From a virus, in IMG/VR virus record IMGVR_UViG_3300032046_000081, positions 1 through 39,664 of that record: a stretch of DNA of 39,664 nt; one strand, 5' to 3'. Position 1 is the stretch's first letter; each line of letters starts with the position of its first letter. The translations under genes and the position numbers were made by a program. Shown here piece after piece: positions 1-29,170 of this stretch. Under the pieces are notes generated by a model. That model ran no database searches. It saw nothing but the letters and a program-made list of their open reading frames with translations, and was not told where the DNA came from.

Positions 1-201
1 TGGTGGTGGGCATTACTAATCATCGGTTATATAATCTTTCTTATTATTAATTGGTTAATTAATCTTTAAGCACACTCATAAGTGCCTGCTAAAGTGAAGA
101 TATCATTCACTGCCCAAGTAAAGGGTGAGATGGCAGCAATACCATCCGCAAACGCGTAAGCGCCAGAAGCATCAAGATATGTCGGTTTTATAACGGTTGT
201 A
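1..201. repeat. Left copy of 201-bp terminal direct repeat
   Basis: This stretch matches 39464-39664 base for base except at two positions: 74 (A here, G at 39537) and 95 (T here, A at 39558). It carries the end of the Cys-rich plus-strand gene and the 3' end of the minus-strand tail gene. The simplest explanation is the overlap of a circular or circularly permuted assembly, with the two differences reflecting population variants. A true terminal repeat of the virion DNA is the alternative. Confidence 0.95.
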
Positions 202-824
202 GTTGACCAATAAGCAAAGGTAGGTACTTCGGCTGTCCCGTGGTCGTGGGCGTTACCCATGCCAACCATATCTTCAGTGATATATCCTGTCTTGGTGGCT
301 GTTGGCAAAGTAAAAGTCCAATCACCATTACCTGAAGCGGTGGTGCTTCCCCAGACTAAATCAATACGATAATGAATTGTATTGCCAATCCTGACATAAA
401 AAGCGGTTTTAGTTCCATTACCCAAAGTATTAGCCGTGCCTGTATTGCCCCAAGTGGTGGTATAAGCCGTCCAGGCCTCTTGTTTGATTAAAGAAGCAGG
501 ATAAATACCATCAGTCGCCCAATACAAACTTGAAGCCCCGCACTGCACTTTAGCCCCGTTAGCGTGGGCTACACCTGTTGTGCCTGCTTGTCCTCTGGTC
601 ATACCCGCTACCGCGCCCGTGCCAGTGGTATACGAGGTATAAATAATAGTTTCCGGCCCGTTATCAAGTCCTACGGCTGTCGTGGAATCATAATCTATCT
701 CTAATACGCCCCCCGTGGCGGGGATCGTTAAACCCGTGCCAATGGTCATTGTAGTAGCATTGTTAGTTAATGAACCTGATAAGGTTGTTTTTTGGAAGTC
801 CCCTGTGGGTAATATGACTGACAT
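66..824 (-). CDS. Putative tail fibre/appendage protein
   Basis: A 252-aa protein rich in Thr, Gly and Ala and poor in charged residues, as is usual for beta-structured virion appendages. Residues 10-40 (TTLSGSLTNNATTMTIGTGL) and the aromatic/Thr-rich C-terminus (PFTWAVNDIFTLAGTYECA) look like beta-strands of a fibre or spike. No enzymatic motif is visible. It is the last gene of the leftward morphogenesis operon and starts 17 nt after the AATTCGTATATTC motif, with GAAAGGA as ribosome-binding site. Its stop overlaps that of the convergent Cys-rich gene once the circle is closed. Receptor binding is inferred from position and composition only. Confidence 0.6.
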   Translation of the reverse strand: MSVILPTGDFQKTTLSGSLTNNATTMTIGTGLTIPATGGVLEIDYDSTTAVGLDNGPETIIYTSYTTGTGAVAGMTRGQAGTTGVAHANGAKVQCGASSLYWATDGIYPASLIKQEAWTAYTTTWGNTGTANTLGNGTKTAFYVRIGNTIHYRIDLVWGSTTASGNGDWTFTLPTATKTGYITEDMVGMGNAHDHGTAEVPTFAYWSTTTVIKPTYLDASGAYAFADGIAAISPFTWAVNDIFTLAGTYECA

Positions 825-840
825 TAAATCCTTTCAATTA

Positions 841-853
841 GAATATACGAATT
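841..853 (-). promoter_or_regulatory. Copy 1 of repeated motif, candidate phage late promoter
   Basis: Minus-strand AATTCGTATATTC, 17 nt upstream of the tail gene starting at 824. The same 13-mer occurs at 3624, 9345 and 11113. Copies 1 and 3 stay identical for several bases on both sides (ATAATTCG... to ...TAATTGAAAG). It contains a -10-like TATATT, with AT-rich sequence and no -35 box upstream. Confidence 0.6.
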
Positions 854-2951
854 ATATTTTATTAGTTGACGGAAATTTGAACCTTGAAAATGGTATGAGT
901 GCCTGCCCTATCTCATCCAAACGCCAACTGCCTGATTGAGAATAGATATAATACTGGATAGCAAACTTCTTGCCTTTGGCTTTGAACCTGATGGGTGTGT
1001 TAATAACACTGGTAATAGTGGTGATAGTGTTAGTCGCTTCGCCTAAAGATTTAACTCCCAAAGCATCCGTGCCTAACCCGCCTTGCGGTTGCACTTGGCT
1101 TAAAGATTTAGAAGTTGATATTTCGCTGTCATTAAAGATAACTTTCAAGGTAACCGATCCGTTTAAAGAACCAAAGATAAAAGTAGAATCCATATACAAT
1201 TTGAGAACATCGGGTATTCCCGAATCAAAAGATTTAGTTAAATAATGCGATTCAATTAAGACACCATCATCGGTTGTGCCAGAATACATCTCATTAACTT
1301 TGCCGTCAGTCGGTTGAATAAAAAACATCCGTCTTTCGCCGTCTGAATCAGTCAACAGAGTAGCATTATTGGCCGCTAAACTTCGCCAATCTTGCCACGC
1401 TTGGTAACGGGTGTCATAGACCATACAAGAATCATTAGAAGTGCCAAACAACGAATAATAAAGGTGATATTTAAATTTATGGTAAATACCCACTAATTTT
1501 TTCTTATTAGCGGCTGATAATCCGTCAAAAATCTGTTGGATTCTGGCTGACTTGTTGGTTGTTCTAACCTCGGTGTAATAAGCAATATCGCCTAAAGAAT
1601 AAACTCCATCATCAGCGGCAAAAAAGATGTCCTCGCCCACTTGGCAGATTGATCGGTGAGAAATACAACCTACCGCGTTGGTGATAAGGGTTACTGTAAA
1701 TTCGTTAACCGTGCTGGTGGTGATAAGACGATAAATAGAATCGTTTAAAAAAACATACAAGGCGTTCTTATAAACAATTAACCCTGTTATCTCCTTGCCC
1801 GCCCCTGGCTCAAAGGTTAAAGTCCCTGGATTAGAAGAAGTGCCGTTAGCGGTAAAATCCAAAGTTTTAGTAGCATCATAGGTTTTAGTGGAAAAATTAA
1901 GCGTATCTTTGTATGTCTCGTCTACGCACCACAAGCGGCGATCAAAATATGCCCCATATAATCCTTTAGTCCCGCCTGTATGGGCTGATACGGTTGACCC
2001 GTCAAACTTCTGCATTGCGTCAGTCCCATTAAAGGTAAATAATACCCCATCAGACGAGACAGGCGTGCCCGGGGTTGGCGTTGAAGACATAATCGCCGCT
2101 TGCACCACATCTACATCTTTATTGTCAGTAAAAGCAGTCCCCGTTTCATCTGTCCAAGTGGCTAAATCGTCAGAGTAAGATAAATAGATATTAGTGTTGT
2201 TGGAAATAAACTTAACCAATTGGTCTTTAGAGGAAGTGTGATATTCGGTGATGCCATAACCGCCACCATCATAGGAAGAGTATTCAATATCATCAATTAC
2301 CATAAAAGAACCTGCTGGTGCAGAAGGGCGAGGGTCGCACCGCACATAAAACATAACGATAGCGTTAGATATAGGAGAACCTGTCTTAGTGGCAGTCGCC
2401 CAATCAAATTTCAATAGATTCCAACCTGTGTGAATTGCTGCCCCTTGATAGTCGGTAACTACAATATTATACCAGCAATTAATTAAATCCGTTCCCCAAT
2501 AAAGTGCCACTTGATTGCTGGTGGCGCCAGCGGCGCCAAGATAATACCACATTCTGAAATAACCTGTATCTTCATAGGCAGATAAGTCTTTAGCGGTATA
2601 AGTCAAATTACCCAAATCACTAAGAAACTTCCCTTCCGCCATCTCCCAGTAGATGGCTTTTGTCCCTTCTTTTTTGTAGGTTGTTTGCACCGCTAAATTA
2701 TCACAATTAGAACCAGCCACCCATTCTCCATCGGCTGTTAACGAATCACAGGCGTCAATTTGGAAGGTAGTCACTGGCCCTATCGCCGCATACCCATCTC
2801 TATTACCCACGCCAGATTTACCCTTGAAATCACAATTAATAGCATCAGGCGATTCATTGTCTTTTACTTGTCTGGGGCCGAGATAATAATTAACGCCGCC
2901 GCTGAAATCCTTGAAGTATTCTTGGCTTAAAACATTTTCTTTGAGAGGCAT
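852..2951 (-). CDS. Large tail/neck structural protein, possible carbohydrate-binding insert
   Basis: A 699-aa protein. The N-terminus (FSGGVNYYLGP, then NESPDAINCDF) matches the pattern I know from phage tail/stopper proteins encoded just after the connector. Residues about 75-230 look like an inserted jelly-roll (Trp/Tyr-rich, ending in MVIDDIEY), compatible with carbohydrate binding. Residues about 230-560 contain repeating beta-propeller-like strands (LFTFNGTDAMQKFDG, GLIVYKNALYVFLNDSIYRL, DIFFAADDGVYSLGD). The C-terminus (GSWRLDEIG) is beta-rich. The start has a strong GGGAGGA and follows the connector gene by only 2 nt. It is probably a tail hub or adsorption component; the exact role is unproven. 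Confidence 0.7.
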   Translation of the reverse strand: MPLKENVLSQEYFKDFSGGVNYYLGPRQVKDNESPDAINCDFKGKSGVGNRDGYAAIGPVTTFQIDACDSLTADGEWVAGSNCDNLAVQTTYKKEGTKAIYWEMAEGKFLSDLGNLTYTAKDLSAYEDTGYFRMWYYLGAAGATSNQVALYWGTDLINCWYNIVVTDYQGAAIHTGWNLLKFDWATATKTGSPISNAIVMFYVRCDPRPSAPAGSFMVIDDIEYSSYDGGGYGITEYHTSSKDQLVKFISNNTNIYLSYSDDLATWTDETGTAFTDNKDVDVVQAAIMSSTPTPGTPVSSDGVLFTFNGTDAMQKFDGSTVSAHTGGTKGLYGAYFDRRLWCVDETYKDTLNFSTKTYDATKTLDFTANGTSSNPGTLTFEPGAGKEITGLIVYKNALYVFLNDSIYRLITTSTVNEFTVTLITNAVGCISHRSICQVGEDIFFAADDGVYSLGDIAYYTEVRTTNKSARIQQIFDGLSAANKKKLVGIYHKFKYHLYYSLFGTSNDSCMVYDTRYQAWQDWRSLAANNATLLTDSDGERRMFFIQPTDGKVNEMYSGTTDDGVLIESHYLTKSFDSGIPDVLKLYMDSTFIFGSLNGSVTLKVIFNDSEISTSKSLSQVQPQGGLGTDALGVKSLGEATNTITTITSVINTPIRFKAKGKKFAIQYYIYSQSGSWRLDEIGQALIPFSRFKFPSTNKI

Positions 2952-2953
2952 AA

Positions 2954-3601
2954 CTAATCCTCCCTAAGTTCGTATTCTAAATCCGTAGGAGAACCTGTCC
3001 TTAAAACGGGAGTAAAGTTAAAGTCCGCTTCTTTGAGAGTTTGTATTCTTTTTAGCCCTTCGGCTTCATAATCATCCTTTAATTTTTCATTTCTTTCATC
3101 CCCAACCCACATTTTAGCGGCCGCGATATATGCAACTGCCTCCCCATCAGGTACAACACAAACATCAGTGGTTGCCGACATATCTGTAGGAATAAAGTTA
3201 TAGTAAATAGTAACTGTTCCCGTTAAAGTTTTAGAGTTAAAAATATAAGTTTCTGTCGCGGTATCATAAGTTATCCAATATCTATATTCATCGGCTGTAA
3301 ATTCATCCCTGTCTTCAATTCTTATTTCGCTAAAAATAGTGTCATCGCTATCGTCCGAGGCCACAATTCTGGCGTCTTTTATATGCCACTTGGGATTGTA
3401 ATTTAAAGGCATTGTGGCCACGCCAGCCGCTAAAGTTAAATTAGCGGTAGTTAAATCCCAAGTAAAAGGCCAGATATTTAAAATATCCTGCACCGTATAA
3501 TTAATATGGTCTTTAACAATCGTTAAATCAGTTCCAGCCGTGCTGTAATCTGATTCTCCGCGCAGGTATTGAGTTCTTTTACATATATTCTCAAATGTCA
3601 T
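2954..3601 (-). CDS. Head-tail connector/adaptor-like protein
   Basis: A 215-aa protein placed between the capsid/glycosyltransferase block and the tail gene. The N-terminus (MTFENICKRTQYLRGESDY) is helical, followed by a helix typical of phage adaptor proteins (VKDHINYTVQDILNIWPFTW) and then a beta-rich middle. The C-terminal half has an Ala-rich helix (GEAVAYIAAAKMW) and a charged helix (KLKDDYEAEGLKRIQTLKEAD), as in podoviral connector proteins. The start is preceded by AGGAG and, 22 nt upstream, by motif copy 2. The family is assigned from architecture and position, not from a catalytic motif. Confidence 0.6.
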   Translation of the reverse strand: MTFENICKRTQYLRGESDYSTAGTDLTIVKDHINYTVQDILNIWPFTWDLTTANLTLAAGVATMPLNYNPKWHIKDARIVASDDSDDTIFSEIRIEDRDEFTADEYRYWITYDTATETYIFNSKTLTGTVTIYYNFIPTDMSATTDVCVVPDGEAVAYIAAAKMWVGDERNEKLKDDYEAEGLKRIQTLKEADFNFTPVLRTGSPTDLEYELRED

Positions 3602-3623
3602 TCGCTATTCTCCTGTCTATAGA

Positions 3624-3636
3624 GAATATACGAATT
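3624..3636 (-). promoter_or_regulatory. Copy 2 of repeated motif, candidate phage late promoter
   Basis: Minus-strand AATTCGTATATTC, 22 nt upstream of the connector gene (start 3601), touching the stop codon of the upstream glycosyltransferase. It would give the connector and tail genes their own start site downstream of the glycosyltransferase block. Confidence 0.6.
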
Positions 3637-4730
3637 TATTTAGAGTCCGGCTCCATGTCTTTGCGCCTCGGCAATTTGTCTAGCCAAGAAGCCAATTTGG
3701 TAGCAATATCCTTCATATTGTAATTCTCTTTAACAAATCTATGTGCCTTCTCACCCCAATAAAGTCTTTTACTCCTGTCTTTAATCAAATTTTCCAACCT
3801 GTCGTACCATTCATAACTGTTAAGGGCATAATTAATGGGCATATCTTTTTGGTTCTCGGTAGGCGAAGCGACAACCGGTATATGCAAACCCGACCACTCC
3901 AAGACATTAAGATTTGATTTAGCGCGGTTATATGAACTGTCAATCAGGGGAACGACCGCAATATCCAAACCTAAATCAGCTAACTTTTTATAAAAAGTAT
4001 ATTTAGTGCGGTGGGTTTTGGGGTCTTTATCGCAAAAATTAACCCAACTGTTCCATTCAACAGGAAAATCAGGGGCAACCAACCCTTCTTTAGGGGAAAC
4101 GCCTAAAACGACAAATTCCACTCCATAATCCTTGATCAACTGCTTCATCGCTGGATAAACAAGCTCCAGGTCGTCTTTGTGTCCATACGCTCCCCGCCAA
4201 CCAATTCTTATTTTTTTGTGTGGTCTTACCTTTAATCGGCTGAATAAACCAAAATCCAATCCATTGGGATTAATATAAATGTTCTTATTAAAAGGTTCAT
4301 ATAACTTTTTAAGATAAGGGACAGAAACCGTCAACCCATCAGCCACCTGAAAACTTTTCTCAATCTCTGGAGCAAGTTTTTTAGCCACCTCCCCTGGATT
4401 ATCCTTGGAAACAGCATAGACATTATCATCTATATCAATAATTAGTTTCCCCCCTGACCACTTACGGGCATCCAGCATTCTGACTATCTCATCCTTGGAA
4501 GCGGTAAAATTAGACCAGATAACATCCGTATTTTTACAAATCATCGCAAATATGTCTTCTTTTAAAATAAGTTTGCCTTTATACTCCCCCCAAGTATTGC
4601 TGCCGCTAAAAGCAGAAGAAGCAACCATTTTAATCAGTTTTTCTTTAAGCATAAAAAAAGCGGGTTGCCAGAGGCGATAGAAACCAACCGCAGAATCCAT
4701 ACGGACTAAACAACTGACTTTAGATAACAT
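3636..4730 (-). CDS. GT4-like glycosyltransferase
   Basis: A 364-aa GT-B-type glycosyltransferase, by similarity of layout. The N-terminal domain carries IIDIDDNVYAV and VADGLTVSVPYLKKLYEPF, a pattern seen in phage and cell-wall glycosyltransferases. The C-terminal Rossmann half has IRIGWRGAYGHKDDLELV and EFVVLGVSP. A nucleotide-sugar site follows (LDIAVVPLIDSSYNRAKSNL, VLEWSGLHIPVVAS), with Glu and Ser-Asn in the positions of the usual EX7E-like region. The ATG at 4730 is chosen because AAGGAGG lies just upstream; an in-frame upstream extension to 4781 lacks one. Third of three glycosyltransferases between capsid and connector. Acceptor unknown; virion or host-surface glycan are candidates. 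Confidence 0.75.
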   Translation of the reverse strand: MLSKVSCLVRMDSAVGFYRLWQPAFFMLKEKLIKMVASSAFSGSNTWGEYKGKLILKEDIFAMICKNTDVIWSNFTASKDEIVRMLDARKWSGGKLIIDIDDNVYAVSKDNPGEVAKKLAPEIEKSFQVADGLTVSVPYLKKLYEPFNKNIYINPNGLDFGLFSRLKVRPHKKIRIGWRGAYGHKDDLELVYPAMKQLIKDYGVEFVVLGVSPKEGLVAPDFPVEWNSWVNFCDKDPKTHRTKYTFYKKLADLGLDIAVVPLIDSSYNRAKSNLNVLEWSGLHIPVVASPTENQKDMPINYALNSYEWYDRLENLIKDRSKRLYWGEKAHRFVKENYNMKDIATKLASWLDKLPRRKDMEPDSK

Positions 4731-4731
4731 T

Positions 4732-4839
4732 TTACCTCCTTGACAAAGTATTGATGCAAAAATCTCGCCAAAATTCGTCATTTATGCAAAAGACACTATA
4801 TTGAATATTTGAGACATTCCCATTAGTTATCTTTTTCAT
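4732..4839 (-). CDS. Small coupled ORF, 35 aa
   Basis: MKKITNGNVSNIQYSVFCIN... (35 aa), not recognised. Its ATG overlaps the stop of the upstream GT2 gene (ATGA), and its own stop lies inside the AAGGAGGTAA ribosome-binding site of the next glycosyltransferase. It may therefore serve mainly to couple translation of the two neighbours. Confidence 0.45.
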   Translation of the reverse strand: MKKITNGNVSNIQYSVFCINDEFWRDFCINTLSRR

Positions 4840-5531
4840 ATTTTATTTTCTTTTCTCAGTATTTCAGTGATTTTTCTCACCTCTTTATCGTGGATAATGC
4901 TGACATTATCATCTCTTGAGAAATGCATTGTTAAGGGACGATTAAGGAAACTAAACTTATACCCCTTTTTAACCCAATAAAGAATAGTCCATAAATCGTC
5001 ATTTACCTTAAATTCAGGCCTATATGCCCCCTTAAAACACTCTCTTTTAGCTAAAATGGTAAAATTAGGCACTATCTGGTGGGCATTGGGGAACTTGCGG
5101 TTTAAAATATCCTTGTAACTCTTAATCTCTTTGTTTATATCCTCTGTGCCGACTACCCCCATATTCTGCCCCTGAAGTAAAGCATAGCTGGTATAAACAA
5201 TATCAGCATCAGCCCTTATAAGACGATTAAAGCACTTTTTTATCCTTGTTGGCTCCATTACGCAATCCGCGTCCATAATGGCAATATAATCACCTTTAGA
5301 GTGTTCAAAGGCAGCCTTGCGGGCAACAGAGATACCGGAATGTTTAACATTCACCGGTTTTACCCTTTTATCCTTTTTGGCATACCAATCAAGCAAGGTT
5401 TGGGTGCTGTCGGTTGAGCCGTCATTGACAACAACTACTTCTATGTCCTTATAAGTCTGGGCTAAACAAGAGTTAATATTATCAGCTAAAAACTCCTCGT
5501 CATTGTAGGTTGGAACGCAGATTGATATCAT
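4836..5531 (-). CDS. Family 2 glycosyltransferase
   Basis: A 231-aa GT-A enzyme. The N-terminus ISICVPTYNDEEFLADNI is the classic GT2 start. VVVVNDGSTDST is the nucleotide-binding loop, and the DxD metal site is MDADC near residue 90. The C-terminal acceptor half is short (FKVNDDLWTILYWVKKGY). It transfers a sugar from a nucleotide-sugar donor to an unknown acceptor, presumably in the cytoplasm. It overlaps the upstream bifunctional glycosyltransferase by ATGA at 5528-5531, so the two are translated together. Confidence 0.9.
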   Translation of the reverse strand: MISICVPTYNDEEFLADNINSCLAQTYKDIEVVVVNDGSTDSTQTLLDWYAKKDKRVKPVNVKHSGISVARKAAFEHSKGDYIAIMDADCVMEPTRIKKCFNRLIRADADIVYTSYALLQGQNMGVVGTEDINKEIKSYKDILNRKFPNAHQIVPNFTILAKRECFKGAYRPEFKVNDDLWTILYWVKKGYKFSFLNRPLTMHFSRDDNVSIIHDKEVRKITEILRKENKI

Positions 5532-7126
5532 GCCAACCTCCTAATTCTCTTGGCATATCGGTTAAAATCCATCTCCTTTTTCCAATATCTGCCCCATTTG
5601 AGGTTGATTACTTCTTTTTGGGCTTTTCTGATAGCGGCAATAATGTTTTTAATCTCTTTATCCGTTTGGATTGATCCTTTTAGAGGAACATTAACTATGG
5701 CTTGCCTGCCGGCAGTCATAAACTCTATGGGTAAAAGTGGAAGCCCATCATGTAGGCATACACGCAAATTACAGCTAAACTTACCCATCCATTTATCCAT
5801 CTTGATATACCCCAAATGTTCAAAGTTATCTCCTTTTTGCCCCTTAACCGCTTCATCGCCAAAGAGATAAAACTTAACATCCGGCATCGCCCTCATCACT
5901 TTAGCCATAATCTCTGGGTGGTACATTGGCGAGACAGAACTTTCATATATCGCGACAGCGAATTCTTTAGGTAAAGGCATGGGGTCATTTAACTGCTTGG
6001 GCGGGATAGGCACAACCTTAGAATCAATCCCCACTTCTTTAAGTTCTTTATGGGTAAAGTTGGCTTCAGTCAAGTTGATTATTTTGTTCTCCTTCATCCA
6101 ATTCTTAATGGCTTTTATCTTTTCAAAACTGCAGTCCCATCGCAGTTGGAATACATCTGTCCCTATCCAATGAATTATCTTTTTGGATTTGGGGGCGTCA
6201 TCAAAAACCTGCATATGAAGGCGGGTAACCATCGGCATCTGGGGATTCTCTTTGGTATAAAAGCCGATTAAGTAAATCAGTTTGTATTTATGCGCCTTGT
6301 AAGAGGGCATTGGCAGATAATCTGCACCTAACTTCTGGGCAATATGGAAGCCATGGTTAGCCGCCCCTAAAGAACAAACCACAATATCAGATTTAGGAAT
6401 GCCGTTTTTGTTGCGGATATAATCTGTCCTCTCAATCCAGTTCTGGTGGGAATCGTCAGACAAACCCCCTTTTTCTGGTGCTTCAGCCATAAAAAAGGAA
6501 TGGTCAATAAACTTCCAATCCTTGCCCTGAAAGTTATCCCTTTTTAACTGCCTAATCGCCCAGTCCCAGTCCTGCAAAGATTTAACAGAAACATCCCAGG
6601 GGATATAAGCCGACTTCCTAATGGGTAAAGTAGAATCGCAGTAATTGGAGTGTTTAAACCCCTCATACCAAATATCCCCATTGGGGTATCTGGGAAGCAT
6701 ATGGATCGCCCCCTGCACGCTTCCGTCAGGCATAATGTTGTCATATAAGCCCCAAACCCTGTTAATCTTGGGGTCTTCAAAAGCATTAGCCCACATCCGC
6801 AGCGCCTCTGGGTATAAATAGTTATCCGCATTTAAAAAACAAAAATAATCGCCTTTAGCAACAGTGGCGCCATAGTTTCTGGCGGCTGGAGCACCAGCGT
6901 GTTTGATCGTATGCCAAGAGATAGGGAACTTGTATTTCTTTTTTAATTTAGCCAATTCTTTCTCGCCTTGTTTAGATTTGCCGTCAAAAACAACAAGCCA
7001 CTCAAACTTTTTGTATTCTTGTTCATTTAAGGTTTGGGCGTTCTTGTTTAGATGCTTCCAGTCATCGCCATAACAAGGCGAAACGATGCTAAAGAGTTTT
7101 TGTTCCTTTAAAAATGGATTAGACAT
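5528..7126 (-). CDS. Two-domain glycosyltransferase (GT2 + GT4-like)
   Basis: A 532-aa protein with two glycosyltransferase halves. Residues 1-240 form a GT2 domain: FSIVSPCYGDDWKHL, WLVVFDGKSKQGEKEL, the donor/metal motif LNADN in place of the usual DxD, and LQDWDWAIRQLKRD. Residues about 250-530 form a GT-B-like half: VVCSLGAANHGFHIAQKLG, HWIGTDVF, AVAIYESSVSPMYHPEIMAKV, FYLFGDEAVKGQ, LPLLPIEFMTAGRQAIV. Fusion of two transferases suggests that two successive sugars are added. It lies directly after the capsid gene, separated by an 11-bp hairpin at 7159-7187. The start follows a purine-rich AAGGAAAATGAT. Confidence 0.85.
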   Translation of the reverse strand: MSNPFLKEQKLFSIVSPCYGDDWKHLNKNAQTLNEQEYKKFEWLVVFDGKSKQGEKELAKLKKKYKFPISWHTIKHAGAPAARNYGATVAKGDYFCFLNADNYLYPEALRMWANAFEDPKINRVWGLYDNIMPDGSVQGAIHMLPRYPNGDIWYEGFKHSNYCDSTLPIRKSAYIPWDVSVKSLQDWDWAIRQLKRDNFQGKDWKFIDHSFFMAEAPEKGGLSDDSHQNWIERTDYIRNKNGIPKSDIVVCSLGAANHGFHIAQKLGADYLPMPSYKAHKYKLIYLIGFYTKENPQMPMVTRLHMQVFDDAPKSKKIIHWIGTDVFQLRWDCSFEKIKAIKNWMKENKIINLTEANFTHKELKEVGIDSKVVPIPPKQLNDPMPLPKEFAVAIYESSVSPMYHPEIMAKVMRAMPDVKFYLFGDEAVKGQKGDNFEHLGYIKMDKWMGKFSCNLRVCLHDGLPLLPIEFMTAGRQAIVNVPLKGSIQTDKEIKNIIAAIRKAQKEVINLKWGRYWKKEMDFNRYAKRIRRLA

Positions 7127-7158
7127 ATCATTTTCCTTCCTTTGATTAAATACACTGT

Positions 7159-7187
7159 CTTGAACCTATTTTTAGTATAGGTTCAAG
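7159..7187 (-). terminator. 11-bp perfect hairpin after capsid gene
   Basis: CTTGAACCTAT and ATAGGTTCAAG pair perfectly around a 7-nt loop, 12 nt after the capsid stop. On the minus strand no T-run follows, so it is more likely an attenuator or an mRNA-stabilising hairpin that keeps capsid transcripts more abundant than the glycosyltransferase mRNA. Confidence 0.55.
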
Positions 7188-7198
7188 GGGTATATTCA

Positions 7199-8188
7199 TC
7201 AATCGCAAGTAATCAGAACTAATCCGCCAGACAAGTTAAGTCTGACTGGGACAAACAAAGCTTTCCAACCAATTGAAATGAACTCATCAATCGGGTCATA
7301 CTTTGATGCTCCGCCAGCCACAGTGTAGTATTTAACTCCACCGTCAAGCTCAGTAATACCAAGTCCGCCTCGAGACAAGAGAAGCGAGAAGTAAACTGTC
7401 GCTCCGCCCGAGCCATTAGCCGAACTCTTGATATTATTGTCAACTTGGATTCTAACACCGCCATATGTTCCAACTACACCTTTCTTCATATTCTCGGGGT
7501 CTGTGTATTGGCATGTTGCCTGCCAAGTCGTATCTCCCTGCAAAACTGAAGCGGTATTGGAATGACACACAAGAGCATAGAATCCATCTTCAAATCGGGG
7601 TGCATTACGTCCTTCCATTGTTTTAACCGCGTTGCGGATAGTCTTGGTAGTCATCACGTGGTCAGTGGCGTTAGCTGTCGTAAAGTAAGCTGAAACACTG
7701 GCGCCGATTTCTGCACTTCCAGTCGTTGAATACTGAATAGCCGAGAAACCAAGCCCTGTTGGGACTGCGTTAGACGAAGAACCGTAAGCTTCCTCAATGA
7801 TTCTGGTGTCTATAATCCCGCCAGCTTGGTCGGACATCGCATCGCTTGTTTCCGTTACTGTTGAGTTGATCGCCGCCAACTGCGTTACGTCCTGAATAGC
7901 TACCGCCCAACCATACTTCTCGATTGTTCCAGAAATCTGGGTGGAAACGATATTACCAGGAGTAATGGGTTCACGACCAGCCGAATACTGAATTCTGGCC
8001 GCTGAAACCGTCATTGAAGGAGTAGTTATCCTGGCCCAATAGGCGACCGTCCCATTATTATCCGGTAATTCCGTTGGTGTACAAAACTCACGCATTTTGA
8101 GTTTTGCCAAAAACCTCTCCAAAAACCTTTTATTGTAAAAGGATGGTACCGCGCCCGAAAGATCAGCTGTACCTGTATAATCTGCCAT
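7199..8188 (-). CDS. Major capsid protein (N4-gp56-like family)
   Basis: A 329-aa protein matching the N4-gp56-type capsid layout. An N-terminal helix reads FYNKRFLERFLAKLKMREFC, followed by GTVAYWARITT. A YSAGREPITPGNIVSTQISGTIEKYG segment corresponds to the family's 'EG..P' region. Next is AIQDVTQLAAINSTVTETSDAMSDQ with TRIIEEAYG, then a beta-rich C-terminus (PVRLNLSGGLVLI). Length is typical. It follows the scaffold gene by 55 nt, with GGAGAT as ribosome-binding site. It forms the icosahedral shell. Three glycosyltransferases lie just downstream. Confidence 0.85.
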   Translation of the reverse strand: MADYTGTADLSGAVPSFYNKRFLERFLAKLKMREFCTPTELPDNNGTVAYWARITTPSMTVSAARIQYSAGREPITPGNIVSTQISGTIEKYGWAVAIQDVTQLAAINSTVTETSDAMSDQAGGIIDTRIIEEAYGSSSNAVPTGLGFSAIQYSTTGSAEIGASVSAYFTTANATDHVMTTKTIRNAVKTMEGRNAPRFEDGFYALVCHSNTASVLQGDTTWQATCQYTDPENMKKGVVGTYGGVRIQVDNNIKSSANGSGGATVYFSLLLSRGGLGITELDGGVKYYTVAGGASKYDPIDEFISIGWKALFVPVRLNLSGGLVLITCD

Positions 8189-8243
8189 ATTAAAATCTCC
8201 AAATAATTAACCTCTAACTAACACGACCTTTGCCTTCATCAAG

Positions 8244-8921
8244 TTAGCTTACACGAGGGATACTATGATATTTAGCGTACTCCTCGGATGTCATTTTGCT
8301 TTCATCAACCTCTTGTCTGGGGCCGGAAGTACCTACCGCTCCAGCTTTCTGCTTCACCTTCTGTGTTTTGACACCTTCCTTAAAGCTGTCATCTTTGGTC
8401 TTCTGCTCACGGGTCTTAAACGATTCATCACAAAGTGCTTTTGCTTCAACCAAAGCGTCTTCAGGGTCAATGTAAAACCCTTGATTACCTTTGTCTCGAA
8501 TCACTTTTTGCACCGTGCCGTCTAACATAGGATCATTGGCTAACTCGGGATGGCGTCGGACAAATTCCTGCGCCCTAATTTCACGATAAGCGCTAATTGC
8601 TTCCTGTCTGGCAACGGGTCGCACTGCCGATTCAGCTTCAGGTTCAAGTGAAGGTTCAACTGGAGTTTGAGGCGTATTAGCATTAAACAAGGCCTGTTCC
8701 GCCTGTCGGCGGCGTTCCCGTTCTTTCTGTAATTCAGAAAGCGGTACTTGCTTGTCAACTTCGGGTTCAGGTGTCTCTGCTTCAACCTCCTCCTCTGCTT
8801 CTACCTCTGGTGTTTCTTCTGGCTTCTCTGCCGGTTCAGGGGTTTCCACTTCGGCGGTTTGTTCGGTCACTGGCGGGGTAACTTCAGGAGTTTCCGTCTC
8901 CTGTTTTTTTTCTTCTGCCAT
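8244..8921 (-). CDS. Capsid scaffolding protein
   Basis: A 225-aa, highly acidic, low-complexity protein. Residues 1-60 are almost all Glu/Pro/Thr/Val, followed by a basic coiled-coil (LSELQKERERRRQAEQALF) and a helical segment (SAYREIRAQEFVRRHPELAND). The C-terminus is Lys-rich. Composition, length and position between portal and capsid genes are typical of phage scaffolds, which fill the procapsid and leave at maturation. Ribosome-binding site AAAGGAG. Confidence 0.8.
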   Translation of the reverse strand: MAEEKKQETETPEVTPPVTEQTAEVETPEPAEKPEETPEVEAEEEVEAETPEPEVDKQVPLSELQKERERRRQAEQALFNANTPQTPVEPSLEPEAESAVRPVARQEAISAYREIRAQEFVRRHPELANDPMLDGTVQKVIRDKGNQGFYIDPEDALVEAKALCDESFKTREQKTKDDSFKEGVKTQKVKQKAGAVGTSGPRQEVDESKMTSEEYAKYHSIPRVS

Positions 8922-8945
8922 ATGGCTCCTTTCAGCAGTTGTTTG

Positions 8946-9037
8946 CCCAGTTGCGAGCTGGGATTTAATGAGCTATATCGGGAGTGTCGGGAGTGCTGAA
9001 GGCGGATGACTCCGACCCCGCAGTGGGGACACTCCCG
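8946..9037 (-). other. GC-rich multi-hairpin element between scaffold and upstream gene
   Basis: A 10-bp perfect inverted repeat (CGGGAGTGTC at 8979-8988, GACACTCCCG at 9028-9037) encloses two further hairpins. On the minus strand these are CCCC/GGGG with a 5-nt loop, and GGAGT/ACTCC. A separate hairpin CCCAG/CTGGG lies at 8946-8962. It is much richer in GC than its surroundings and fills the 126-bp gap 8922-9047. It could be an mRNA-processing or attenuation structure, or a DNA site; no T-run makes it a standard terminator. Confidence 0.55.
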
Positions 9038-9047
9038 AAATAGACCA

Positions 9048-9326
9048 TCAAGATTGATTTAATTTATCTGTTTCTTTAGCTAATTTCTTCTGCGCGTCTA
9101 TCTCTTTAAAAATGTTGTGAAAAGCGTATTTTAAGGATTTTATATGTTTTAACCTCGCCCGTATCTCAAACTCGGGCATAATATCAAATTTGGCATATAA
9201 ATCATCCTCTAATTGTGCAATTACAGGATCAATGGCCAATTCTCGCCAAGTCCTAAATTCGTTTAACCTGTTAAGAACAAGCAAAAGCTCTAATTTTTTG
9301 TCCTCTTTCTTAAAAGGCCACTTCAT
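9048..9326 (-). CDS. Small helical protein in morphogenesis operon
   Basis: 92 aa from the ATG at 9326, chosen because GAAGGA precedes it (the frame is open to a TTG at 9341). Strongly helical and charged (KWPFKKEDKKLELLLVLNRL, RLKHIKSLKYAFHNIFKEID). Not recognised. Its place between portal and scaffold and its own copy of the repeated motif suggest an assembly role. Confidence 0.6.
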   Translation of the reverse strand: MKWPFKKEDKKLELLLVLNRLNEFRTWRELAIDPVIAQLEDDLYAKFDIMPEFEIRARLKHIKSLKYAFHNIFKEIDAQKKLAKETDKLNQS

Positions 9327-9344
9327 TTTTCCTTCTTTCAATTA

Positions 9345-9357
9345 GAATATACGAATT
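9345..9357 (-). promoter_or_regulatory. Copy 3 of repeated motif, candidate phage late promoter
   Basis: Minus-strand AATTCGTATATTC, 18 nt upstream of the small gene starting at 9326 and overlapping the last codon of the portal gene. It would lead into the small gene, scaffold and capsid. Confidence 0.6.
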
Positions 9358-11104
9358 ATTTTTTTAATAAGGTTGCCGCCATCATCGGACTGGTAGGTGT
9401 TTGCGGTTGGGTTGGTTGCCCTTGCCCCATACCTTGCGGTATTTCTGAATAATACTGGTCTGGTTCCTTGATACCCGCTTTCAACCCTCTCTCGGTCAAA
9501 ATTTTGTCAATATCAAGCTGTTTGCCCATTGCCAACGCCTGCTGCACCCAACTGTCAAAAGATTGAATCTCTTTCTCTGTATCCTGTTGCGCCATTGAAC
9601 CAGTCTCTACCCTAACAATCCAATCAACATCAAAAGCCAGTTCTTTTTCAGGGTTCAACCCATTGGAAAGCATATCTTGAGCAATTTCGTTTATTTGCTC
9701 AATTTCAAGTATCTGGGCGGTCATTAGGTCATTTAAGGTAATCTTGCCTGTTAATAAGCCCTTGGTTATCTTGACCCACTTAGGGGAAGTTCCGCTCATA
9801 AAAACAAATTTAGTCTCGTCTTTGCCCATCATTTTGCCTGCCATCTTGAGCCACTTGTTAACCATTGGCTCAATCAAAGATTCCTCAAGATTCTGTTGTC
9901 TATCTGATATAGGCGTTGACCCCTGTTCCACCATTTGATTAATACCAGTGGCTGTCTTTTTGACATTAGCTAAATCTTGGTTATAGACATTAGTTGTGCC
10001 TGCGGCAGATTCCATCCTTGTCTGCAGGTAGTTCATCAGTTCAAAACTTACAGGGGGAAGATTAGGCATTGTTTGGTGTTGCGCCATTTGGGGATTAGCC
10101 ATTACCACTCCGCCCAAACGCCAAGCATTAGATAAAGTTGACTTATCTGAAGTAGTGATATTAGGGTCAACAAACAAAGGCGGGTTCAGGGCTTTAGCCC
10201 CCCAGTCAATTGTTTGGTTCAAGATTAAGTCTTTGGCTTTGGCGGGAAGCATAATATCGTCAATCAATCCCAAAGCATATGGCTGTTTGAGAAGTTCAAT
10301 ATCCATCGCAAAATTAAGAGGCGACTCTTCGATACCTAAAACATCATCATCTTCTTGGATAATCCATTGCCAGTTGACAATACGACAAACCTTACTGCCC
10401 TCGTATCGGCTTATAAGTTCAAGGTTTTTAGTTTGGTCTTGGTACAAAGACGATCCAGAACGGGTTATTTTGTTCTTGGAGGGATCATTCTGGATATTTT
10501 CCTCTGTCTCTTCTTTTTCTAACCAACCCTCAATCTTGTCTAAATTCTTAAAATCTTCTCTTTCTTTTAACTCTTCAAGGGAAACATATTGCCTAATATA
10601 ATGCACTTTTGATGTTTTCAGGGTCTGGGTCGGGTCAAAAATAATATCCTCTATCGGTATCACCCTAAAATCAGGGTTGTCCGCTTCAGAATCAAAGTAA
10701 ACTTCAACTGCCGTATTCCCGATAACGCAAAACTCCCTGCCGGCCATTTTAAGTTTAGGTTTTTTGGGGCCGGAAGTATTAATAGCTTCGGGATTATTCC
10801 AGAAATAAGAAGCGGTGGCAGTGATAATATCTGTTATCTCTTTAGGCACATCGAAACCACGGCCCAAAACATAAAACTTTGGTTCGCGCTCAAATAACTT
10901 CTGCACCACCTTTTCCACAATATCTGGCACAACAGGGTCTGATATTTTGGATTTAGTGGAAACGACCGAAGCTAAAGTAGTATATTGCTTGTAATTCTTA
11001 TCAAACCTATTGGTATGGTATTTATTGAGAACATTAAACCACTTCGTATATTCGGAGTTGTATTTGTCAATCAAACTTTGATCAGATTTAATCTTTTTAT
11101 CCAT
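9356..11104 (-). CDS. Portal protein
   Basis: A 582-aa protein with the look of podovirus-type portals. It has an N-terminal helix (DKYNSEYTKWFNVLNKYHTNRFD) and VVPDIVEKVVQKLFEREPKF. A conserved AGREFCVIGNTAVEVYFD leads to FRVIPIEDIIFDPTQTLKTSK (the 'P..D..F.D' pattern). A helical crown follows (ESAAGTTNVYNQDLANVKKTATGINQMVEQ, ISDRQQNLEESLIEPMVNKW), with a Gln/Pro-rich tail (MGQGQPTQPQTP). It forms the dodecameric DNA entry vertex and docks the terminase. Motif copy 4 lies 8 nt upstream of the start. Unusually, it is separated from the terminase genes by about 6 kb of glycan genes. Confidence 0.85.
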   Translation of the reverse strand: MDKKIKSDQSLIDKYNSEYTKWFNVLNKYHTNRFDKNYKQYTTLASVVSTKSKISDPVVPDIVEKVVQKLFEREPKFYVLGRGFDVPKEITDIITATASYFWNNPEAINTSGPKKPKLKMAGREFCVIGNTAVEVYFDSEADNPDFRVIPIEDIIFDPTQTLKTSKVHYIRQYVSLEELKEREDFKNLDKIEGWLEKEETEENIQNDPSKNKITRSGSSLYQDQTKNLELISRYEGSKVCRIVNWQWIIQEDDDVLGIEESPLNFAMDIELLKQPYALGLIDDIMLPAKAKDLILNQTIDWGAKALNPPLFVDPNITTSDKSTLSNAWRLGGVVMANPQMAQHQTMPNLPPVSFELMNYLQTRMESAAGTTNVYNQDLANVKKTATGINQMVEQGSTPISDRQQNLEESLIEPMVNKWLKMAGKMMGKDETKFVFMSGTSPKWVKITKGLLTGKITLNDLMTAQILEIEQINEIAQDMLSNGLNPEKELAFDVDWIVRVETGSMAQQDTEKEIQSFDSWVQQALAMGKQLDIDKILTERGLKAGIKEPDQYYSEIPQGMGQGQPTQPQTPTSPMMAATLLKK

Positions 11105-11112
11105 CTCTTAAT

Positions 11113-11125
11113 GAATATACGAATT
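11113..11125 (-). promoter_or_regulatory. Copy 4 of repeated motif, candidate phage late promoter
   Basis: Minus-strand AATTCGTATATTC, 8 nt upstream of the portal start codon, preceded by TTTTTT. Conserved core shared with 841, 3624 and 9345; no -35-like hexamer at 16-18 nt upstream. Confidence 0.6.
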
Positions 11126-11157
11126 AAAAAATCCCCCTTTTTGACTTACCTCTTTAT

Positions 11158-11451
11158 TTAAGAGAGATTTTGCTCCTCATCATCATAGGGCATTTTACGA
11201 GAGTATCCAATATCCAATAAATCGTGTTTGCCTCGGGCTAAATCAGTTATCTTGTGTCGACAGACCACAAAAGCCCAAGACTTTATTTTACCCTTTTTAG
11301 GGTCAAAACTGCCTAATTTAGACCACAAATGCAACCTCAAGTCTTGGGCTATTTCATCTTGGTCTTTGCCTTTAATCCTCCTATATCTGGACATATTGAC
11401 AATTAAAGGGTCAACAAAAAGTAAAAATTGTTCTGAATAGTTATTTTGCAC
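11158..11451 (-). CDS. Sigma-70-like factor with region 2 only
   Basis: A 97-aa protein resembling sigma region 2. FLLFVDPLIVNMSRY is followed by DQDEIAQDLRLHLWSKLGSF (the 'DL.QE..L.L' core-binding helix), and DPKKGKIKSWAFVVCRHKITDLAR is the -10-recognition helix. After that only about 25 residues remain, so region 4, which reads the -35, is absent. Such a protein could direct host RNA polymerase to -10-only promoters, as T4 gp55 does. The start is GTG at 11451 with no clear ribosome-binding site, 23 nt after a TATAAT. Alternatively it is a sigma-like protein of other function. Confidence 0.65.
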   Translation of the reverse strand: MQNNYSEQFLLFVDPLIVNMSRYRRIKGKDQDEIAQDLRLHLWSKLGSFDPKKGKIKSWAFVVCRHKITDLARGKHDLLDIGYSRKMPYDDEEQNLS

Positions 11452-11480
11452 TTGACAATTATGTGTCTGACAATTATATT
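11452..11480 (+). promoter_or_regulatory. Consensus-like promoter facing right (antisense)
   Basis: TTGACA, 17-bp spacer, TATATT on the plus strand. It contains a direct repeat of TGACAATTA. It fires into the antisense of 11474-11827, where no convincing plus-strand gene exists. The minus strand of the same stretch has TATAAT at 11474-11479, which could serve the sigma-like gene. Confidence 0.45.
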
Positions 11481-11827
11481 GCTAATTCAATCTGTTTAAT
11501 TGTCTGTTCAATACCAATGGCAATATCAGTGTTTTTGTATTGCAGCGCCGGCCCCTCCCAACTGATTAATAAACCAAAATTATTAGGCAGTGGTTCGCCT
11601 TTTTCCACTACATTTTGCGCAAAAATCCCTGTGCTCTTCCATCTTGATAATGCTTCATCATAGCCAATCAAACCTACCTGTTTGGCAATTTTGATAAGCT
11701 CTGGGGCGATAACATAACCTACGCCATCAGCATTTTTGTTTTGCTTGAGGATTTTTTTGATTTCCTCAAATGATTTGATTTCTACTTTCTTTGGTTCTTC
11801 TACTACCTCTTTCTCTTTTCCAAACAT
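11474..11827 (-). CDS. Hypothetical protein, 117 aa
   Basis: Not recognised. N-terminus acidic/basic (MFGKEKEVVEEPKKVEIKSF), then a helix-rich body (KIAKQVGLIGYDEALSRWKS) and an Ile-rich C-terminus (DIAIGIEQTIKQIELAI). It lies between the DegT-like aminotransferase and the sigma-like gene. The start has AAGGAGACAAA upstream. Confidence 0.6.
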   Translation of the reverse strand: MFGKEKEVVEEPKKVEIKSFEEIKKILKQNKNADGVGYVIAPELIKIAKQVGLIGYDEALSRWKSTGIFAQNVVEKGEPLPNNFGLLISWEGPALQYKNTDIAIGIEQTIKQIELAI

Positions 11828-11836
11828 TTTGTCTCC

Positions 11837-12421
11837 TTATTTAAATATTCTATATTGACTTAAATCCGCGTAATCATCCATCGGAAGTGGCTTATTGTGT
11901 TTCGGCAGAAAATATAATCTTGTCAAAGCATCAGCCGCGTCTCTTGGGCTCATATAACAATGCCAGCCAATAAAGTCAAAGTTATCCTTTTTAGGCGGCA
12001 CTCCAGGGGTTCGCCCGTCAAATCTGGCTCTTTTAAACCACTTTTGGGCTTTTCTGTTATCGTGTAATATCACCCCGCCTTGGCCTAAATTAAGTGTTTT
12101 ACCCCAGTGTAAAGACAAACAGATATATTGCCCTTTTTTATACATCCCCGAAGTTAAAAGCCGAGCCGAGTCCCAGATAGGATAAGGTTTGAGTTGATAC
12201 ATCCCTTGCCACTTGTCTTTATGGAATTTTACTTTCCCCCCAGCGTGAATAATTGACATTGGCACACTTACATAAGTTTTATGGGGAATAGTTACTTCTT
12301 TAACTTTTAGATAAGCGCAACAAAGTAATAGGGCATTGGTGCAAGAGTTGACTACAATAGCATATTTCGCCCCCGCGTATTTAGCAATAGCTTTTTCAAA
12401 TTGTTCTACAACTCTATACAT
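11837..12421 (-). CDS. Mini DegT/DnrJ/EryC1-type aminotransferase
   Basis: A 194-aa version of a family usually 360-390 aa long. Residues 5-30 match the N-terminus (VEQFEKAIAKYAGAKYAIVV, NSCTNALLL in place of SGTSAL), followed by VTIPHKTYVSVPMSIIHAGG. Asp84 in IWDSARLL corresponds to the cofactor-contacting Asp. Lys108 in SLHWGKTLNLGQGGVIL is the PLP-binding Lys. GWHCYMSPRDAADALTRL matches the family's interface helix. A middle segment and the C-terminal domain are missing. It would aminate a keto-sugar nucleotide, matching the dehydratase gene at 16587. Whether so short an enzyme is active, or acts as a partner subunit, is open. Confidence 0.8.
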   Translation of the reverse strand: MYRVVEQFEKAIAKYAGAKYAIVVNSCTNALLLCCAYLKVKEVTIPHKTYVSVPMSIIHAGGKVKFHKDKWQGMYQLKPYPIWDSARLLTSGMYKKGQYICLSLHWGKTLNLGQGGVILHDNRKAQKWFKRARFDGRTPGVPPKKDNFDFIGWHCYMSPRDAADALTRLYFLPKHNKPLPMDDYADLSQYRIFK

Positions 12422-12447
12422 ATTTAGAAATTATGGGGCAAGATCTC

Positions 12448-13173
12448 CTACTTGCCCCTAAGGCGGTTATTGTACTTCTCGCATGCTACCCACAGAGGGT
12501 GTTTGTGCTGAGATATGGCAGCTTGGGTGTCTTTTGGGAGGCATTTGCCACCATATCCTCTTTGTCCATCTTGGTTGATGACCCACCCCCACTTGGGGAT
12601 ATTGCGGTGAAAGGTAGCGCCTTGCACAGCTTCCTCATAGATGGACGGGTCGCCTGTCTGTTCAACAACCCAGTCGTAGCAGGAGTTCGCCAGGACAACC
12701 TGTGAGCTTCCCCATAAGTTGCAGAAGTATTTGGCGAACTCGGCCGAGATGGACTTCATCTCCAGGTAGTGTGCTGCTTCGGGCAGAACATCTTTGGCTA
12801 AGTCAATCCGAGCAAAGCTCTCAGGCGTGATGCCCAAGATGTAGTAACTCGGATGTGCCAGGTCGGCTTCCATCGTTGCCTCAAAGCCGAACTCCGGCAC
12901 AAACATCAGGGGGAAGTTGACTTCCTTTTGCAGCTTCTCGGTAGTGCCAGGCAGAACAGTTGAGCGCAAGATGATAAGCCTTGCCTTCTCAACACGGCTT
13001 ATCGCCTGCCTCACCTGTGTCAGGTCTTGGCGTCCCCCTATGGTCTCCGTGGGAACGCAGATGACGACTACATCCGTACATATCGGCTCTTTGCCTGGGC
13101 CAAAGGGGACAACCCCCATAGCTTTGGCAAGGGCGGTACCGACTGTTCCATCTCCTATCACAGCCATTCTCAT
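12448..13173 (-). CDS. Truncated UDP-glucose/GDP-mannose dehydrogenase family protein
   Basis: 241 aa against about 400-450 for the family. It has the NAD-binding GxGxxG (AVIGDGTVGTALA), ILRSTVLPGTTEK, Glu94 in FVPEFGFEAT, Lys148 and Asn152 in EFAKYFCNLWGS, and catalytic Cys211 in GYGGKCLPKDT. All active-site residues of the NAD and central domains are therefore present, while the C-terminal nucleotide-sugar-binding domain is missing. It would oxidise a sugar nucleotide to a uronate. GC content is clearly higher than in flanking genes, suggesting recent acquisition with the radical SAM gene it overlaps (ATGA at 13170-13173). Confidence 0.85.
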   Translation of the reverse strand: MRMAVIGDGTVGTALAKAMGVVPFGPGKEPICTDVVVICVPTETIGGRQDLTQVRQAISRVEKARLIILRSTVLPGTTEKLQKEVNFPLMFVPEFGFEATMEADLAHPSYYILGITPESFARIDLAKDVLPEAAHYLEMKSISAEFAKYFCNLWGSSQVVLANSCYDWVVEQTGDPSIYEEAVQGATFHRNIPKWGWVINQDGQRGYGGKCLPKDTQAAISQHKHPLWVACEKYNNRLRGK

Positions 13174-14333
13174 GCGTTCCTCCTTGCGTACTTGGTATAT
13201 AGCATCTCCTGAGCCCGCAGTATCTCCTCCGAAGTCATGTTGCTGGTTGAGGTGGTGCAGACATAGGCGTCTGACCTGCCCTTGCAGTGGTGGTATGGGC
13301 CGAACTTGACATCGTAGGCCTCGGGGTTCTTGTAGATAGCCGAGCCAGGGTAGACAGCCAGGATGTTGACATCCACTGCGTCAGGTCGGCTTTCCTCCAG
13401 AAACTTGTCGGTCTCGGCGATGGTCTCTTGGCTTTCGCCAGGCAGACCGACAATCATGAAGGCCTTGACCCGAAGCCCGACTTCGTGAGCCAACTGGATA
13501 CAGCGGCGTTGCTGTTCCACTGTCTCGTGCTTGTGGATGTTGTCGAGGATGGTCTGGCTGCCACTCTCTACCCCCAAAGCGATCTCACGGCAACCGGAAG
13601 CCTTCATTAGGTTCAGGATGCCCTTGTCAGCGTCATCGGCTCTGGCCAAGCAACGCCAGACAAGGTTGCGGTCATGGAACTTGTAGCACAAGGTCTCAAG
13701 GCGTTCCCTGCCGGTCATAAAGGTGTCATCGTAGAACATCACGGCTTGGTAGCCCTGACGCATCACCGAGTCAACCTCGGTCATCACGCTGTCGGCGCTT
13801 CTTGTTACCCTTACGCGCCCGTAGACATCCTTGGAGCAGAAAGCACACTCCCAAGGGCAACCCCTTGAGGTTACCATTGTGGTGGCCTTCAGCCCGTCAA
13901 TCTGGTAGTGGTAGCGATACTCCTGGTTGCAGTTGGGGAAGTGGTGGTCTAAGTCCCTGATCCGTGGGGCGGTGATGATGCCAGTGATGCCTCTCTCGAC
14001 TATCTGGCTGATGACGGAATCACCCTCGCCCTGAACAACTGTGTCAAAGCCCATCTCCAGCAACTCCTCGGGCTTGGCCGTGGCGTGTGGCCCACCGGCA
14101 ACCTTCAGCCCTGAAAGTTGGGGTAGAATCTCCGCCATCTGGTTAAGGTGGACGGAACAGCCGGTGACGCCATAGGCATCAGCACCCTCTGGGATTGTGT
14201 CTCCCAGACCCAAGTCAACAACGGTTACATTGTGCGCTTGCAGGGCGTTGGCTACATACCAAAGCCCTAGTGGAGGCATAACGGCTTGGTCGATCATAAA
14301 CGGTGAACTGGGGTTAATCAAAACCACTCTCAA
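13170..14333 (-). CDS. Cobalamin-binding-type radical SAM protein
   Basis: A 387-aa protein with two domains. Residues 1-130 are a B12-binding-like Rossmann domain (VVLINPSSPFMIDQAVMPPL, GVTGCSVHLNQM, KVAGGPHATAKPEEL, VVQGEGDSVI). From about residue 150 comes a radical SAM barrel with the CxxxCxxC cluster in SRGCPWECAFCSKDVYG, VMFYDDTFM, EIALGVESGSQTIL and KAFMIVGLPGESQETI. No HxxGG is visible in the B12 domain, so cobalamin binding is uncertain. Such enzymes methylate or rearrange unactivated carbons; sugar or lipid tailoring fits the neighbours. High GC (about 57% in the sampled part), unlike the AT-rich genes on either side. ATGA overlaps at both ends. Confidence 0.9.
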   Translation of the reverse strand: MRVVLINPSSPFMIDQAVMPPLGLWYVANALQAHNVTVVDLGLGDTIPEGADAYGVTGCSVHLNQMAEILPQLSGLKVAGGPHATAKPEELLEMGFDTVVQGEGDSVISQIVERGITGIITAPRIRDLDHHFPNCNQEYRYHYQIDGLKATTMVTSRGCPWECAFCSKDVYGRVRVTRSADSVMTEVDSVMRQGYQAVMFYDDTFMTGRERLETLCYKFHDRNLVWRCLARADDADKGILNLMKASGCREIALGVESGSQTILDNIHKHETVEQQRRCIQLAHEVGLRVKAFMIVGLPGESQETIAETDKFLEESRPDAVDVNILAVYPGSAIYKNPEAYDVKFGPYHHCKGRSDAYVCTTSTSNMTSEEILRAQEMLYTKYARRNA

Positions 14334-22754: not shown

Positions 22755-22773
22755 CTTCCTCCTAAAATTTAAT

Positions 22774-25787: not shown

Positions 25788-25815
25788 ATTATACCGCTCG
25801 CAATATGTGTGTCAA
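25788..25815 (-). promoter_or_regulatory. Sigma-70-type promoter for the small-gene operon
   Basis: TTGACA (25815-25810), 16-bp spacer, TATAAT (25793-25788). It should drive the leftward chain from 25779. The start codon begins 8 nt after the -10, predicting a leader of 0-2 nt. Confidence 0.8.
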
Positions 25816-28532: not shown

Positions 28533-28561
28533 ATTATACAGCAATCGTTTTTTCTTGTCAA
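28533..28561 (-). promoter_or_regulatory. Consensus sigma-70 promoter for methyltransferase
   Basis: TTGACA (28561-28556), exactly 17 bp, TATAAT (28538-28533). Predicted start at about 28526, 2 nt before arm A of the leader. Confidence 0.85.
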
Positions 28562-29141: not shown

Positions 29142-29170
29142 ATTATACGCCTCTTTTTTGTATTTGTCAA
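29142..29170 (-). promoter_or_regulatory. Consensus sigma-70 promoter
   Basis: TTGACA (29170-29165), 17-bp spacer, TATAAT (29147-29142). It drives the membrane-anchor and lysozyme-like genes. Confidence 0.85.

Follow-up and report, generated by a model that had tools for sequence, protein, structure and literature searches.

In phage phiEco32, the sigma factor gp36 uses a single promoter element, tAATGTAtA, with transcription starting 6-8 bp downstream, and the missing -35 element was attributed by the authors to the lack of region 4 homology in gp36 (PMC8948821). A sigma factor and a motif as in phiEco32 were described for SU10 (PMC4281155). In phage 7-11, the sigma factor gp47 shows homology to region 4, and its promoters are bipartite, GTAAtg-(16)-aCTA (PMC8948821).

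The window analysed here is the complete record IMGVR_UViG_3300032046_000081, 39,664 nt of an uncultured phage. Judged from sequence comparison, a small protein of this phage very likely redirects the host RNA polymerase to a short signal before the virus-particle genes. This kind of system is already known from phiEco32; the one described here would be far smaller and belong to an uncultured clade. Relatives were found by capsid and portal alignment queries among uncultured viral contigs (L092-L100 and L200-L206). The relevant features of the window are listed below.

66..824, minus strand: tail-region gene of no named family (phrog_13144; synteny with tail genes)
841..853, minus strand: AATTCGTATATTC, proposed late promoter of the tail gene 66-824; equivalent site in L092
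2954..3601, minus strand: adaptor/connector protein (Pfam SU10_adaptor, 6.5e-9)
3624..3636, minus strand: AATTCGTATATTC, proposed late promoter of the adaptor (connector) gene; equivalent site in L092, L096, L098, L099, L100, L202, L204 and SU10 (8994)
7199..8188, minus strand: major capsid protein (phrog_1357, 6e-27)
8244..8921, minus strand: scaffold-like protein, downstream of the 9345 promoter (position and homology in relatives)
8922..8975, minus strand: hairpin before the scaffold gene; in relatives at L092 9236-9279, L095 3400-3462, L100 4925-4972, L202 8770-8819 and L206 12370-12415
9048..9326, minus strand: small gene between portal and scaffold, no named function (SU10 gp07 holds the equivalent position)
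9345..9357, minus strand: AATTCGTATATTC, proposed late promoter of the small gene 9048-9326 and the downstream scaffold and capsid genes; equivalent site in L092, L095, L097, L098, L100, L202 and L206
9356..11104, minus strand: portal protein (Pfam SU10_portal, 1.7e-14)
11041..11053, plus strand: one-mismatch copy of AATTCGTATATTC inside the portal gene, probably due to chance
11113..11125, minus strand: AATTCGTATATTC, proposed late promoter of the portal gene, 8 nt ahead of the ATG; orthologous sites in L092, L095, L100, L202, L204 and L206
11158..11451, minus strand: proposed late sigma factor of 97 aa, sigma-like with region 2 only and ECF-like (Pfam Sigma70_r2, 2.5e-9)
25788..25815, minus strand: host-type promoter TTGACA-16-TATAAT before accessory genes, perfect consensus match
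28533..28561, minus strand: host-type promoter TTGACA-17-TATAAT of accessory genes, perfect consensus match
29142..29170, minus strand: host-type promoter TTGACA-17-TATAAT of accessory genes, perfect consensus match

A previous sequence-only reading of this DNA had reported four minus-strand copies of AATTCGTATATTC, each 8-22 nt ahead of a structural gene, and no copy elsewhere. Scanning of the whole record returned these four exact copies, all on the coding strand (841-853, 3624-3636, 9345-9357 and 11113-11125), and no further exact one. With up to one mismatch there are five matches against 0.10 expected from dinucleotide shuffles, none of 100 shuffles reaching five; the additional match is the plus-strand copy in the portal gene. 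The gaps between AATTCGTATATTC and the start codon are 16, 22, 18 and 8 nt for the sites at 841, 3624, 9345 and 11113, the third being measured to the ATG at 9326, with the TTG at 9341 not required. A blind degenerate scan of the entire coding strand ([CT]GTATA[TA], 2-40 nt ahead of an ATG with a frame of at least 50 codons) returned exactly the same four sites, and the chance that four random places would land at those four gene starts is about 1e-7. Among the neighbouring genes, the portal and the connector were correctly named in the sequence-only reading, as judged by Pfam; its "assembly protein" at 9048-9326 is a small gene without a named function, and the tail assignment of 66-824 is by synteny, with no named family. 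Its statement that accessory genes use TTGACA/TATAAT agrees with the three perfect host promoters, which lie on the same strand.

The same reading had described the motif as containing TATATT and no -35 element, and this holds in a promoter alignment of 27 element instances from 11 records. The information is limited to about 13 positions around GTATATA, with no upstream information peak and no shared upstream activator box among the 27 aligned instances; TTGACA matches at 15-19 nt are as frequent as in shuffled upstream controls. The distance from the element to the start codon is 4-31 nt across genomes. Seven instances lie 4-10 nt from the ATG (the portal site of this phage, L092 portal and tail, and the portal and adaptor sites of both L202 and L204), and none of these seven has a good Shine-Dalgarno sequence between the element and the ATG, whereas one is present at 19 of the 20 instances located 14-31 nt away. 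With phiEco32-like transcription starts, 6-8 nt downstream, the messages from the 4-10-nt sites would be leaderless or nearly so. The L204 sites, 4 nt from the ATG, fit only with [C/T]GTATA as the recognised hexamer, not with TATATN.

The 97-aa protein encoded next to the portal gene consists of sigma region 2 and has no region 4, as had been suggested from the sequence alone. In addition to the Sigma70_r2 match it has a match to phrog_1740, "RNA polymerase sigma factor" (2.6e-4), and the Pfam profile search gave no region 4 model match. The AlphaFold2 model built from a 12-sequence alignment has a three-helix core with pLDDT >90. Both the profile search and the predicted fold of 11158-11451 give sigma region 2. 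All 50 structure matches listed for the model are sigma region 2, including T4 gp55. Foldseek against PDB matched sigma region 2 chains, none below E 0.001. VIA-align 2 comparison with sigma region 2 structures gave Z 8-10, with Z 9.1 for E. coli sigmaE region 2 bound to the -10 strand (4lup) and Z 8.5, rmsd 2.5 over 74 residues, for the T4 gp55 open complex (7d7c). A Z of ~10 for a three-helix model alone is not conclusive and is common for helical models; thus the sequence profile and the context carry more weight in the identification. A direct repeat, ATAATTGTCA-gacac-ATAATTGTCA, lies where the sigma gene starts (~11452-11480); on the plus strand it also forms TTGACA-17-TATATT, and it could act as an operator of that gene.

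Among known systems, that of phiEco32 and SU10 (Kuravirus) comes closest, ahead of T4, in the sequence and placement of the promoters and in gene order. As would be the case in this phage, a phage sigma without region 4 goes with a promoter of one element in phiEco32 and SU10. The CGTATATTC of this phage has the GTATAT core of the phiEco32 tAATGTAtA and no -35, and the phiEco32 core ATGTATA is matched by TAATGTATATCTA of L202. In SU10, AATGTATAT at 8994 lies directly ahead of gp011, itself of the SU10_adaptor family, as does the site at 3624 here ahead of its own SU10_adaptor gene. The two phages share the gene order portal, small gene, scaffold, capsid, adaptor and tail; their portal and adaptor belong to the same Pfam families, and SU10 gp32 and the 97-aa protein both belong to phrog_1740. 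Direct hhalign comparison of these two proteins gave a weak match (E 0.0027, probability 11), and tblastn of the SU10 stretches 1-14400, 14000-40000 and 46000-54000 against this phage gave no match; hence the relatedness to SU10 rests on profiles. Common descent of the two sigma factors is likely, though their sequence similarity is too faint to establish it. The systems differ in the size of the sigma (97 aa here versus 214 aa in phiEco32), in the position of its gene (adjoining the portal versus among the middle genes in phiEco32 and SU10), in the additional proposed promoters here ahead of the portal and small gene, and in genome size (~40 kb versus 77 kb); no gp79 regulator came to notice here. 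New relative to phiEco32 are the 97-aa size, an uncultured lineage in which protein and promoter diverge as pairs, and the closeness of sites to the ATG, which would leave transcripts almost without a leader.

The parallel originally drawn was with T4 gp55, and it stands for the region 2 fold and for the late promoters, which are -10-only and have no -35. As the nearest system, T4 gives way to phiEco32, whose gp36 is closer, so that the idea is less new than it appeared: the element YGTATAW is near that of phiEco32 rather than that of T4, the gene context is unrelated to T4, and no counterpart of the gp33 partner or the clamp gp45 was noticed among the proteins examined here. Phage 7-11 gp47 is likewise phage-encoded and for late virion genes; unlike the 97-aa protein, it includes homology to region 4, and its promoters are bipartite. 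By region 2 sequence the nearest proteins are bacterial ECF sigmas (E. coli RpoE, CnrH, SigW), with Rhodobacter RpoE as the best PDB match. The GTA-type -10 element is similar to the -10 boxes of ECF sigmas. ECF sigmas have both regions 2 and 4, whereas the 97-aa protein has no region 4 and its proposed promoters no -35.

Single-sequence searches of uncultured viral contigs with the sigma protein and the portal gave no match, and alignment queries were needed; portal tblastn in phages gave no match, and searches of genome contigs found distant prophages and nothing closer. The relatives are 39-64% identical to this phage in the capsid protein where aligned and 40-51% in the portal. A small region 2 protein is directly ahead of the portal in every record spanning that spot (L092, L098, L100, L200, L201, L202/L203, L204 and L206). 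Sigma70_r2 is found in 12/12 aligned proteins and region 4 is missing from 11 of them, the sole exception being L209, an outside relative with another gene context. None of 26 more distant records, found via capsids mostly ~23-31% identical, has Sigma70_r2. In a further contig (L214 4765-5153), a region 2 protein is followed directly by GTGTATATAC. The sigma-like C-termini of L098, L100, L206 and L214, and a frame upstream of the L095 portal, share an acidic-hydrophobic motif (variants LELDDFI, IRLEDIL, INIWDYL, MDLDDFL and MTLDDLS), which may be a tail that binds a clamp or a partner; the 97-aa protein of this phage does not have it.

The 13-mer AATTCGTATATTC is not found in the relatives. 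Most of them carry their own repeated variant of a common form, [C/T]GTATA[T/A], at equivalent genes, constant within a genome and different between genomes; an exact scan of uncultured viral contigs for the extended motif gave no matches, which fits motif drift. In L092, GTGTATATA precedes the portal, the small gene, the adaptor, the tail gene and the next gene, and ranks first among the over-represented 9-mers of the locus (5 versus 0.03 expected). L096, L097 and L098 have GTGTATATAC, the top over-represented 10-mer of the L098 locus; in L098 the copy that follows the sigma gene lies ~340 nt away from where the portal begins, with no start codon close by. [TG]CGTATATA in L100 and TAATGTATATCTA in L202 are both found ahead of the portal, small gene and adaptor, and TAATGTATATCT is the top over-represented 12-mer of L202. 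L204 has GCGTGTATATGG ahead of the portal and adaptor, L095 and L099 have AGCATATATA, and L206 has [GA]CGTATA; TCGTATATA is also among the repeated variants. The pattern [CT]GTATA[TA] is upstream of 10 of 22 orthologs of the four genes versus 0/92 other orthologs in the relatives (Fisher p = 9.5e-9, for a degenerate pattern chosen after inspection of the sequences and for genomes that share ancestry and are not independent).

The sequence-only reading had counted relatives that keep the protein and have no motif as evidence against itself. The two occur together in eight genomes including this phage, counting L214 with a presumed portal promoter; in L200 and L201, which have the protein, the element is missing before the portal, and in L200 also before the small gene, the adaptor sites being off the contig. 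The tail-gene site is kept in L092 (1/5 relatives) and was not seen in L094, L098, L100 and L204. The outer relatives (~25-31% capsid identity) have scattered pattern matches, mostly intragenic, with no within-genome repeat. The helix of region 2.3-2.4 (A6) reads VMRN in all genomes with TG before TATA (L092, L098, L202, L204 and L214), and VCRH, VIIN and VMKN in the CG genomes (this phage, L100 and L206). With few independent cases, this variation is a possible lead to the recognition code.

The conserved position of the protein, the drifting motif at orthologous genes, the absence of a -35 and the region 2 fold together suggest that the elements are, with good confidence, single-element late promoters read by the 97-aa sigma on the host core RNA polymerase, the accessory genes being transcribed earlier from host promoters. 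The 97-aa protein would be a minimal phage sigma that docks on the host core RNA polymerase with region 2 alone and reads one element, [C/T]GTATA[T/A] (AATTCGTATATTC in this phage), before the portal, portal-scaffold, adaptor and tail genes. The virion genes would then be transcribed late by a holoenzyme needing no -35, and the accessory genes earlier from ordinary host -35/-10 promoters. The link between protein and motif, proposed from the sequence alone, is supported by the comparison across relatives; polymerase binding, motif recognition and late timing are what we infer. More tentatively, and with slightly more doubt than trust, we suggest that a free-standing region 2 of ~97 residues could be a complete, partner-free late sigma, the smallest known, with specificity that diverged together with the protein across one phage clade, and that some transcripts could start at or near the start codon.

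The elements could instead be promoters read by the host housekeeping sigma, with TATATT as a -10 without a -35 and an activator or high AT content in support, the phage protein being otherwise employed, e.g. in competing with the host sigma. TATATT is identical to TATAAT in 5/6 positions and the sequence upstream of the elements is AT-rich; however, the conserved [C/T]G directly before TATA does not correspond to the extended -10 of the host (TGN), the sites have no activator box in common upstream, and perfect host promoters serve the accessory genes of the same phage. This reading, which we consider unlikely, also has to face a repeat that varies between genomes yet is constant within each, and an element and a protein that occur in one clade and are both missing from outer relatives. 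The host extended -10 as such was rejected, as the TG register does not fit.

That the element is an operator, an RNA-processing site or a translation signal ahead of the virion genes, rather than a promoter, seems to us very improbable: it agrees with the phiEco32 promoter element, which was mapped by experiment, is not consistently palindromic, and in all cases has a spacing compatible with a start 6-8 nt downstream. The nearness of the element to start codons (4-31 nt) and the seven sites without Shine-Dalgarno would suit a non-promoter role, but a site 4 nt from the ATG leaves scant room for a ribosome-related one. Chance or local duplication could be suspected from the longer stretch, AATTCGTATATTCTAATTGAAAG, common to the copies at 841 and 9345, but it has next to no credibility, since the flanks of the remaining copies differ, the relatives have other sequences at equivalent sites, and the ortholog comparison (10/22 vs 0/92), the shuffle statistics and the blind scan contradict it. 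An archaeal TATA box needs a transcription start ~26 nt downstream. The element looks similar to such a box, and this candidate was rejected because such a start would in several cases lie within the gene, and the protein is a sigma of bacterial type.

If the late-sigma reading is true, this phage would offer a naturally occurring minimal sigma factor with which to study the requirements of region 2 on its own in promoter opening, and the phiEco32 strategy would be extended to an uncultured phage lineage. The clade would also offer matched protein-promoter pairs for reading and testing the recognition code that links region 2 to the -10 element, the promoter versions being CGTATAT in this phage and L100, CGTATA[A/T/C] in L206, GTGTATATA in L092 and L098, ATGTATATC in L202 and GTGTATATG in L204.

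The small hairpin just before the scaffold gene is common to relatives (e.g. CGAG-ACATAA-CTCG and CGTC-ACTAAA-GACG), with compensatory changes in 4/4 pairs; an Rfam search with it gave no match. In several relatives it is inside an outer CCTTTC/GAAAGG pairing that would mask the ribosome-binding site, and it is a candidate translational operator. The structural cluster contains, at 3636-7126 and 11837-16077, many glycosyltransferase, radical SAM and sugar-nucleotide genes, as it does in the relatives. The gene at 22104-22793 contains thirteen DNA copies of GGAACTCAGG, which encode NSG repeats.
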